The position numbers and the translations under genes are program-made. A DNA stretch of 64,000 nucleotides from Natronorubrum thiooxidans (GTDB taxonomy: Archaea > Halobacteriota > Halobacteria > Halobacteriales > Natrialbaceae): assembly GCF_900156475.1 (NCBI RefSeq), contig NZ_FTNR01000008.1, positions 1-64,000 of the forward strand, read 5' to 3'. Below the pieces are notes generated by a model. It did not search any database, had not been told where the DNA came from, and was given only the letters and a program-made list of their open reading frames with translations. Positions 48,134-52,864 of this stretch are shown one piece after another. The first letter of the stretch is position 1. The number at the start of each line of letters is the position of its first letter.

Positions 48134-49312
48134 ATGACAAGCAAAACAACCACTCTCCAGAAAGGACGTGCAGTACTGTTAGCCGGACTGATGGTGCTGT
48201 CCGTCGTTGCCATGTCCGCAGCGTTTGCGGGCGCGGCGGCGGCAAACCACGCTGACGAAGATGTAACGTTTACTGACCAAGCCCTCGGCATATATGACGG
48301 TGACACTGCCTTTGTCGTCGAGTCAGTCGACGCCCACGAAGGACAGTACCTCGAGATCAAAAACGAAAACACCGGTGACGTAGTGTACGAAACAGAGATT
48401 AGCGAAGATCTCACCAATGCTGCTATCTACGTGCCCAGTGAAAAAGCGGGACAGTACACGGCAACTGTCTACGCGGATGACACTCGAGAGGACGCGAAAG
48501 CGTCCGACACCGCAATGGTGTACGGTGCTGGCATCCAGATGAGCGACCAGTCGGCAGATAGCTCGATCGACCAAGTGAGCGTTGACGTCGCGGCGCTACT
48601 CGATGGACACGATGACGACACCGAGTTCGGCGTCGTCCTCACCGACGAGGACGGGAACGAGCTCGGCGAGGCAACCGGACTGACCGGTGTGAACGAGGAT
48701 CTCGTCATCGAGACGTCGACGATCGAGACGGAGACCGTCGTTACAGCAACGGTCTACCTCGATGGCGAACCGATTCAAGCCTACTCTGATGAGGCCGAAA
48801 GCTTCGTCACGATCGCCGATTCGGCCACCGTGACGCCCGGTATGGACGATGGCGATGACAACGGCGATGATAACGGCGATGACGCGGACGACAAAGACGA
48901 CGACAAGGAAGGCGACGAGAAAGACCACGACGACAAGGACTACGAGAAAAAGGGCGATAAGGACTACGAGAAGAAAGGCGACAAAGACTACGAAAAGAAG
49001 GCTGACAAAGACTACGACGACAAGGAAGACGACGAGAAAGACCACGACGACGCGAACGGAGACAACGGCGCTGAAGACGACGACGGCGTCTCGAACGATG
49101 CGGACGGCGACCAGGACACCTCCTCGGAAACCGATCAGAGCCAGGACTCCGAGCAGGACGCCTCACAGGACGCTGAGAACGAGCAGGAACAAGACACAGA
49201 GCAGGAAAACGAGACCTCCAGTGACGAAGATGAACTGCCCGGCTTCGGTGTCGGTGTCGCCTTGGTCGCACTGCTCGCAGCCGCCATGCTGGCACTCCGA
49301 CGCCAGAACTGA
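48134..49312 (+). CDS. secreted surface protein with charged repeats and PGF-CTERM-like anchor
   Basis: The 392-aa protein has a Sec signal peptide (about residues 1-37, ending in a GAAAANHA-like region). A beta-rich domain follows (44-130, VTFTDQALGIYDGDTAFVVE), resembling DUF7282-type domains, with a second one to about 230. A highly charged linker (234-365) holds four tandem DKDYEKKG-type octapeptides and a Q/D/E-rich tract. The tail LPGFGVGVALVALLAAAML then RRQN is a PGF-CTERM sorting signal, read by archaeosortase A for lipid anchoring. It is therefore a cell-surface protein. Function unknown; the repeats resemble spacers. Confidence 0.85.
   Translation: MTSKTTTLQKGRAVLLAGLMVLSVVAMSAAFAGAAAANHADEDVTFTDQALGIYDGDTAFVVESVDAHEGQYLEIKNENTGDVVYETEISEDLTNAAIYVPSEKAGQYTATVYADDTREDAKASDTAMVYGAGIQMSDQSADSSIDQVSVDVAALLDGHDDDTEFGVVLTDEDGNELGEATGLTGVNEDLVIETSTIETETVVTATVYLDGEPIQAYSDEAESFVTIADSATVTPGMDDGDDNGDDNGDDADDKDDDKEGDEKDHDDKDYEKKGDKDYEKKGDKDYEKKADKDYDDKEDDEKDHDDANGDNGAEDDDGVSNDADGDQDTSSETDQSQDSEQDASQDAENEQEQDTEQENETSSDEDELPGFGVGVALVALLAAAMLALRRQN
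48932..49027 (+). repeat. four in-frame 24-bp tandem repeats (DKDYEKKG-type)
   Basis: Four consecutive 8-residue units lie in the linker of the surface protein: DKDYEKKG twice, then DKDYEKKA and DKDYDDKE. Since the unit is 24 bp, gain or loss of copies keeps the reading frame, so length can vary between strains without breaking the gene. Confidence 0.85.
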
Positions 49313-50326: not shown

Positions 50327-50953
50327 GTGTGTAATCTACCGCGTGTCGGGCACACGTGTCAAAGCTGCTTATCGCATCGGCCAACTCCTCATCGGTGCTG
50401 CCAACCTTCTCCTCTATGGCACGTTGCCCGGTTGGTAGCCAACCCGGTGATGAATATGAACCCCGGCAACGGTTTCGAGTAAAACCCCTGGTTAGCCGAT
50501 TTAAACCGGTCAAAACAACGTTACTGTGATTGAGACACTCGTCTGTACGAGGTCAATACGAAACGTTCAAGAATTAAAGAACTTCTTGTAGACAGGAATA
50601 TTGGCCCGCTGCAGTCATGGACATATTCACATTAGTTTCACATCGGTATTCGATTGAGAATATACATCATATCGACGGATAGATAAAACCGGTTACTGGG
50701 GAGAACAGTATCCGAATACGAATTGTTTCATCACGGCCGCGTCACACGGTTTCGATCGTATGGCTCCGAGTTCACACACTGAGACCGGCAGACCCCAGTC
50801 TGCGATCCCCACTCTCGAGTGAGTCTGCACTCGTGGTAGCCGACCTCTTCTTGCCCGTAACAGCCAGATAACAAAGACAGTAATCAAGCTAGATCAGTTC
50901 GTGTCGAAGATAGTCAATCAAAACGGACCCTCTTCGACGATTCTCAAAGTTGC
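50327..50953. other. divergent intergenic region, likely promoter zone
   Basis: It separates the DQ-repeat gene and the Q/N-ladder gene and must hold both promoters. AT-rich stretches occur at 50560-50700. Frames on both strands are short and unsupported. A TTTAAACC near 50497 and AAAACAAC nearby could be promoter parts, but I cannot pin a TATA box. Confidence 0.45.
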
Positions 50954-52864
50954 GTGAAACAAACCATGTCAAGACTACCACAGCTTTCAGTACTACTCGT
51001 CGCCGCGATGGTCATCCTCTCAATGACCGGGGCAGCGGCCCCTATAGACACAACCGAGGTGGCCTCTGAAACGGATACGACAGACGGGACAGTCCAGACG
51101 CTCGAGCACGGTGAGGACCTCTACTTCGTCTTCGGGGCGGAACTCGAGAATCGATCAGCTGATGAGTTCATCGAGTCCCAGTTGGCGGATCGTCCCGAGT
51201 CGATTACCGATCAGGAGGAGATCGCCGATGTTGTCCAGTATCAGGACGTCGAGCAGGTCGATTTCAACCGACAAGGGGGCGCGATCTCCATCGCGATCGA
51301 CGGCGGTGAGGCGACCGCTATCCAGGAGGCGAACCAACAGAATGCGAACAGCCAGGTCGGTGAGGCGACCGCCGAAAACACCCTGGCCATGCCCGAAGAC
51401 GTCGCCTTCGAAAACGTCGGAAACGTCCACATCGTATTCGGCACCGGCGACAATCAGACGTTCGACGGCTGGAGTGTCGCCGACGGGACGGGCGACGAAC
51501 CCACCCAGGACGTCACGCAGCCAACCGAGGCATCGACCGACCAAGAGCAAGACGTCGACCAGGTCAATTTCAACGACCAGAGTGCGGCTTTTGCGATCGC
51601 TGAAAACGCAAGCGAGGCGGTGGCATACCAGCGATCGACACAGGCGAATCAGAACCTCCAGCACGGATCGACGGAGTTGTTCGAAACTGCCGTCAGCGAC
51701 CCAGCGACCACCCAGTCGTCGCTCGCAAGCATCGATCAGTCACAGAACGTCTCACAGGCGAATCACAACCAGCAGGGCCTGGCAGTCGCGATCGCGGTCG
51801 GTCCTGATTCTGTCGCGACGGCGATCCAGATCACAGACCAGACCAACCTCAACGAGCAGGTTGCATCGACCGAAATCGTCTCCGTCCTCGATGTGATGTC
51901 GGGGATGAACGTCGCGACTGCCGACGTTGACAACAGTAGCGTGCTGTCGACGACCGGCGGCGACGGCGGCGACACTGACGACGCCGATGCCACCGAGGCG
52001 GCGGTCAGCGTGACACAGTACCAGAGCGCAGAGCAGGTCAACGTGAATTTACAGAGTGCTGCAGTGGCGATCGCGGTCAACGAAAGCAACGCGACGGCGA
52101 TCCAGTTGGCCGAGCAGCGAAACTACAACGAGCAGGTCGGCGTTATGGATGCCGAAACTACCGAACCACTTATTGATCCGCTCCTCGAGGCCGCGGCCGG
52201 AGCCGTCATCACCAACGAAACGACGGTGACGATCGGGGGCAACGAGATCGACGGCGAGCCGCTGCTGGCACTCGAGTACGACGGCGAGAGCGGCCAGCAG
52301 ACCGACGGCGAACAGTACTCGGCTGCCGCGCTTGACCAGATACAGTTCGTCAATCAGCTCAACGTCAATCAGCAGCAGGCTGCCCTCGCCATCGCCCAGG
52401 ACAACGGGAGCGCTGACGCATCACAGATCACGATCCAGGAGAACAGAAACGTGCAGTTCAGCGATGTCGAGTCGACGGCCGTCGGTTCACCGCCGGCTGA
52501 CGGCACTGATTCGAACGGTACGGACGGAACCGACGGCGACGGCACGGACGGGACGGAAGACGGTTCGACGGGTGCTGACAACGACGACGGTGACAAACCC
52601 ACGGAAGGAACCGGCGAGAAAGCCAAAAACGGCGCTGGCGACAAACCGACGGACGGCGATAAGGACGCCAAAGAGAAGACGGACGGCGGGACCGATGACA
52701 CGACGCCGTCCGACTCCGACGGCGACACCGACACCACCGGAGACACGACGCCAGCCGACTCCGATGACGAAGACGAAGACGACTCGATGCCGGGTCTCGG
52801 TGTCGGTGTTGCCCTTCTCGCGCTCCTCGTCGCTTCCCTGTTTGCAGCACGCGACGGACACTGA
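50954..52864 (+). CDS. Q/N-ladder repeat surface protein with PGF-CTERM-like anchor
   Basis: The 636-aa protein has a Sec signal peptide (about residues 10-29). Five repeats of about 45-50 residues follow at roughly 93-137, 195-239, 258-304, 352-396 and 456-504. Each has two arms: QxQxxxQxNxNxQ then an A-x-A-I-A strand, and later AxAxQxxxQxNxNxQ; repeat 4 reads QYQSAEQVNVNLQSAAVAIA. Regular Gln/Asn spacing with alternating small hydrophobic residues suggests a beta-solenoid or amyloid-like fold, in style like curlin repeats although the spacing differs. A Gly/Asp/Thr-rich linker and a PGLGVGVALLALLVASLF tail point to archaeosortase processing. A later ATG at 50966 is an alternative start. Confidence 0.85.
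   Translation: MKQTMSRLPQLSVLLVAAMVILSMTGAAAPIDTTEVASETDTTDGTVQTLEHGEDLYFVFGAELENRSADEFIESQLADRPESITDQEEIADVVQYQDVEQVDFNRQGGAISIAIDGGEATAIQEANQQNANSQVGEATAENTLAMPEDVAFENVGNVHIVFGTGDNQTFDGWSVADGTGDEPTQDVTQPTEASTDQEQDVDQVNFNDQSAAFAIAENASEAVAYQRSTQANQNLQHGSTELFETAVSDPATTQSSLASIDQSQNVSQANHNQQGLAVAIAVGPDSVATAIQITDQTNLNEQVASTEIVSVLDVMSGMNVATADVDNSSVLSTTGGDGGDTDDADATEAAVSVTQYQSAEQVNVNLQSAAVAIAVNESNATAIQLAEQRNYNEQVGVMDAETTEPLIDPLLEAAAGAVITNETTVTIGGNEIDGEPLLALEYDGESGQQTDGEQYSAAALDQIQFVNQLNVNQQQAALAIAQDNGSADASQITIQENRNVQFSDVESTAVGSPPADGTDSNGTDGTDGDGTDGTEDGSTGADNDDGDKPTEGTGEKAKNGAGDKPTDGDKDAKEKTDGGTDDTTPSDSDGDTDTTGDTTPADSDDEDEDDSMPGLGVGVALLALLVASLFAARDGH

Follow-up and report, generated by a model that had tools for sequence, protein, structure and literature searches.

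A divergent gene pair encoding putative secreted repeat proteins

The window, the 64,000-nucleotide stretch of Natronorubrum thiooxidans DNA analysed here, contains two divergently oriented genes for putative secreted proteins with a common repeat (Table 1). One encodes a protein with five repeats rich in Gln and Asn (the large protein), and the other, which the earlier sequence-only reading of this DNA had overlooked, encodes a short protein with a single repeat (the small protein). The open reading frame of the large gene begins with GTG, and comparison with homologues makes an ATG at position 50966 the likelier start. The N-terminal export signals of both proteins were read by eye, and that of the large protein is plausibly a signal peptide. 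It is followed by a conserved segment with invariant F60, G61 and A62, which could possibly act as a cap, and the insert between repeats 1 and 2 contains invariant G172 and W173 in a region of low predicted local distance difference test (pLDDT) values in AlphaFold.

Table 1 Features of the large gene, its partner and the region between them
Feature	Length or residues	Position	Strand	Basis
Small partner, putative secreted Q/N/D protein, one repeat	144 aa	49892-50326	-	Profile homology to large-protein repeats
Shared divergent intergenic region	627 bp	50327-50953		Conserved blocks adjoining each gene
Large subunit, putative secreted five-repeat Q/N-ladder protein	636 aa	50954-52864	+	Open reading frame and homologue matches
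Putative N-terminal export signal, Sec type	about 1-30	50954-51043	+	Hydrophobic core, no RR motif, by eye
Conserved segment L-x-x-G-x-x-L-Y-x-x-F-G-A	50-62	51101-51139	+	Homologue alignment
Repeat 1	91-143	51224-51382	+	E 2.4e-20
Insert F-E-x-V-G...D-G-W between repeats 1 and 2	about 150-174	51401-51475	+	Conserved in alignment
Repeat 2	193-243	51530-51682	+	E 1.3e-19
Repeat 3, arms 28 apart	258-311	51725-51886	+	E 3.6e-18
Repeat 4	351-402	52004-52159	+	E 2.3e-19
Repeat 5	458-510	52325-52483	+	E 2.8e-17
Acidic D/G/T-rich stalk	511-608	52484-52777	+	Most homologues lack the stalk
PGF-CTERM archaeosortase tag, PGLG variant	609-633	52778-52852	+	TIGR04126, E 5.9e-07

The two genes lie about 630 bp apart throughout the window's clade. 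Within this clade, a leader of about 225 nt adjoining the small gene is conserved, and a second conserved block precedes the large gene; these blocks possibly represent a long untranslated region or regulatory sites. An Rfam scan of the whole window returned one tRNA and nothing else. The conserved neighbours of the pair resemble unrelated housekeeping genes, and neither extra operon genes specific to the pair nor a dedicated assembly factor were conserved among them. The window also encodes, at 48134-49312(+), another putative secreted PGF-CTERM protein, with a signal of the surface-glycoprotein type and a stalk of KDYEKKGD-type lysine/aspartate repeats.

Repeat architecture and the two faces of the ladder

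The five repeats of the large protein each span about 53 residues and are separated by linkers rather than contiguous. Each is built from a pair of arms set 27 residues apart, or 28 in repeat 3, giving ten arms with the motif Q-x3-Q-x-[ND]-x-N-x-Q, of which nine match Q-x3-Q-x-N-x-N-x-Q exactly and one has D for the first N. None of 20,000 composition-preserving shuffles of residues 91 to 510 reached ten arms, and the shuffle maximum was two. The sequence-only reading had described five repeats of 45-50 residues, each with two arms of spacing Q-x3-N-x-N-x-Q flanking an A-x-A-I-A strand; the five repeats and their paired arms stand, whereas the repeats proved longer and separated by linkers, the proposed spacing omits one Q, and the strand is exact in four of the five repeats and inexact in one. 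With these small corrections, its overall observation on the large gene was confirmed.

Across 199 repeats from 44 homologues, positions alternate between two faces: a Q/N/A face that is near-invariant and uncharged (A V Q Q V Q N N Q / A A A / S A A Q S Q N N Q G A A N), and one that is variable and acidic. Mean entropy is 0.13-0.25 bit at the tested 'inward' positions, where 0.1% of residues are charged, versus 2.8-2.9 bits and 24-30% charged at the 'outward' positions, although the repeat units were chosen by a pattern that demands Q/N/E-type letters at several ladder positions and thereby forces some of these letters. The unbiased support therefore comes from positions outside the pattern (for example A1, V3, V9, A20, A22, A24, A30, A32, S36, G46, A48 and A50), which are also conserved and uncharged, and from the ladder columns of the alignment, which are invariant or nearly so across the 44 homologues. 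The alternation appears to be that of a buried and an exposed β-face, with the Q/N/A face presumably turned inward. Among the homologues the arms are 27 residues apart in 155 cases and 28 in 43. The absence of the ladder from close homologues had been named as grounds for abandoning the fibre idea, and the ladder is kept in close and distant homologues.

Homology and distribution of the two proteins

A relative of the small gene lies upstream of, and divergent from, the large gene at 38 of 48 loci. A profile built from large proteins only finds small open reading frames with E values down to 4.6e-11, a profile built from small proteins only detects the large protein of the window (E 4.9e-11), and a non-circular profile-profile comparison of the two families gave 96.3% and E 1.8e-9. 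On these comparisons, the repeat of the small protein is homologous to those of the large protein. A further profile-profile match, of the repeat alignment to the small family (97.7%), was set aside as circular because that alignment holds three small-family repeats. The window's small protein has 35 acidic residues, none of which are adjacent (10.3 adjacent pairs expected), with 25 pairs at a spacing of two; this acidic alternation is strong in the small proteins of several clades and absent in others.

Matches to the large protein were found in 33 of the 61 genomes searched, its own included, a few of them to the acidic tail only. In the class, the large-only profile has matches in 84 of 391 genomes, 79 of which belong to the window's own family, identified from the named loci as Natrialbaceae. 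The gene family is nearly confined to Natrialbaceae, the few outliers including Halalkalicoccus, and the nearest named relative of the window locus is in Natronorubrum sulfidifaciens. Of 382 class genomes, 81 have matches to the small-family profile, and those listed also carry the large gene; as large proteins are matched by this profile too, the informative result is only that small genes are absent where the large gene is missing.

The large protein has no Pfam match, its only NCBIfam match is the anchor tag, and a PDB sequence search returned nothing meaningful. An alignment-based search confirmed no viral relatives. A search of largely open-access literature found no description of the family.

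A C-terminal anchor tag largely confined to one clade

The C-terminal tag, previously noted as PGF-CTERM-like, scores 29.0 bits with NCBIfam TIGR04126, above the cut-off of 24.5, and a gene for the matching archaeosortase is present in the genome (TIGR04125, 335 bits), so that both hallmarks of a PGF-CTERM substrate are present. Lipid anchoring through ArtA is established in haloarchaea (PMC7157517). In a tree of 44 sequences, the tagged proteins comprise the six members of the window's clade (support 100/100) and one long-branched sequence. The other 37 lack the tag, and many homologues stop just past the last rung. Anchoring is thus a feature of the clade rather than of the family, and the lipid-anchored protein of the sequence-only reading applies to this clade and the one other sequence, but not to the family.

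Predicted structure of the repeats

AlphaFold, given 44 sequences, models the large protein with ten β-segments of about 25-29 residues; the pLDDT is mostly 75-88 in the repeats and low in the linkers, and the predicted template modelling score (pTM) is only 0.47. An AlphaFold check of the β-solenoid had been proposed, and the model, at this low pTM, is all-β with solenoid-like repeats. A Foldseek search with the model returned no significant match, its first row being CsgA (8c50, E 1.5). VIA-align superposed the model on the SufB and SufD solenoids with Z of about 8.5 and 2.3-2.5 Å over 145-152 residues (best, SufD: Z 8.5, 2.3 Å over 145 residues) and, with a root mean square deviation of 8.7 Å and Z 6.7, on CsgA 8c50; such Z values can reflect a mere common arrangement, so a solenoid-like β-stack of the large-protein repeats is moderately supported by the model. 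The prediction for the small protein alone was uninformative (pLDDT 44).

Two other readings of the repeats bear on this model. In the first, the repeats would form a flat sheet, for example one associated with the S-layer, or long antiparallel β-hairpins, in each of which the palindromic Q-x-N-x-N-x-Q arms would face and pair with one another. The nearly unbroken β-segments of about 25 residues in the AlphaFold model, with a turn of 3-4 residues between them, would suit this topology, as would arm positions that by eye seem mirrored about the turn, but the VIA-align fit is to parallel solenoids, and we consider hairpins quite unlikely. The second takes the proteins as a mostly disordered, acidic, low-complexity surface polymer and the β-model as an artefact of repetitive sequence. 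Although the low pLDDT of the linkers and the small protein and the very acidic composition are compatible with disorder, invariant ladder positions and a fixed 27-residue spacing would not be expected in divergent homologues, which makes this reading very improbable.

Comparison with curli and other β-structured systems

The pair resembles the curli proteins CsgA and CsgB in comprising two secreted proteins, putatively so here, with a common repeat, in which Gln/Asn ladders accompany small hydrophobic residues, and in a β-solenoid, which is predicted here and for which CsgA was the top, though weak, Foldseek row. However, its rungs are of 27 residues with the spacing Q-x3-Q-x-N-x-N-x-Q, whereas curlin has a repeat of about 23 residues with N-x-ψ-x-ψ-x-Q (PMC10192328). 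The curlin repeat profile PF07012 matched neither the window protein nor any of the 44 homologues, and an hhalign comparison with curlin found nothing. Membership of the curlin family is rejected at the profile level, and the caution of the sequence-only reading against claiming curlin homology was well placed. No csg genes for secretion or assembly, such as those for CsgG, CsgE and CsgF, were seen among the conserved neighbours of the pair; in an archaeon, which has no outer membrane, CsgG is not to be expected.

The SufB/SufD β-helix gave the best superposition as a generic parallel β-solenoid, but it is a cytoplasmic Fe-S scaffold with 5-10% identity, and what it shares with the large protein is at most a fold type. 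FapC of Pseudomonas, another functional amyloid, gave a weak row (9u4u, VIA Z 2.5), too weak for kinship. The sheath protein of Methanospirillum and Methanosaeta (SH/MspA) is an archaeal, extracellular, amyloid-like β-arch protein (PMC10593813). The present pair is likewise archaeal and putatively extracellular, with a β-structure that is only predicted, but SH/MspA builds the rings of a tubular sheath and includes a cap domain.

PF07012 exceeded its cut-off in two of 292 class genomes, both from Natrialbaceae and each time in a protein distinct from the pair (245 aa, L085:1300-2037(-); 207 aa, L087:994-1617(+)), consistent with the mention of one archaeal curli-like protein (PMC3521004). These true Pfam curlin-repeat proteins are not part of the large/small pair; their signal peptides resemble that of the small partner.

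A candidate two-component extracellular system

We propose that the pair forms a curli-like but non-homologous two-component extracellular β-solenoid system, in which the gene pairing and the homology come from sequence, the fold is predicted and the stacking is postulated; we give this proposal an even chance of being correct. Both proteins would be exported, and each repeat would fold into two β-rungs of about 27 residues. The inward face would carry the Gln/Asn ladder flanked by Ala, Val and Ser, and the outward face would be variable and acidic, fitting high salt. The large protein would provide a ten-rung segment as the base, which in the window's clade an archaeosortase would tie to membrane lipid through the acidic stalk. 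The single-repeat small protein would offer open β-edges and could stack on the large segment and on other copies of itself, yielding a cell-attached fibre or matrix with a role in biofilm or adhesion, by a curli-like mechanism rather than by descent. The conserved two-gene secreted repeat system is a good candidate for an archaeal functional amyloid. In its stronger form, the proposal is that this amyloid evolved independently, with single-repeat subunits polymerising on a five-repeat nucleator, anchored in one clade, to build haloarchaeal biofilm matrix on the ladder principle of curli without common ancestry; we regard this form as possible but somewhat short of probable.

Several observations count against the two-component fibre: an adjacent partner is missing at about ten loci, some of them owing to contig ends; no dedicated assembly factor is conserved beside the pair; the small proteins vary widely in layout; and long inter-repeat linkers would be unusual in an amyloid core. 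The constant five repeats and long insertions also suggest a defined object rather than an open-ended polymer and, with the stalk and tag of the window's clade, would suit a non-polymerising β-solenoid surface protein, in which the large protein would act as a rigid adhesin or spacer and the small secreted proteins, with the same repeat, as soluble ligands or decoys. Most homologues lack an anchor, however, many of them ending right past the last rung, and a single-repeat partner is hard to account for without stacking, so that we hold this explanation to be rather unlikely. The divergent partner with its shared repeat is the main reason for preferring an assembling system over a lone adhesin.

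Biofilms of Haloferax volcanii show amyloid staining that has not been traced to a protein; HVO_1403 is put forward as a potential determinant only (PMC4180959), and a review from 2025 gives it as unconfirmed beside the methanogen sheath protein MspA (PMC12520557). As matches outside Natrialbaceae are few, the pair does not directly explain the Haloferax staining; it offers a concrete archaeal amyloid candidate for one family with culturable hosts. If the pair forms fibres, a curli-like architecture evolved more than once, and the short gene list makes the fibre idea testable.

Variation among related loci

A search of the genomes for paralogues found a second 144-aa small-subunit paralogue in the window's own genome, on another contig (L084:1372-1806(-), G000 contig C48). 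In the small partners of four loci (L047, L052, L057 and L077), the two arms seem by eye to be reversed, in the order B arm, linker, A arm. In Natronorubrum bangense, the chromosome and a plasmid each bear a matching copy of the locus (L035 and L036). L071 and L073-L076 form a divergent subfamily, some members of which have, by eye, a twin-arginine-like signal (RRGYL), with a lysine-rich tail replacing the PGF anchor.
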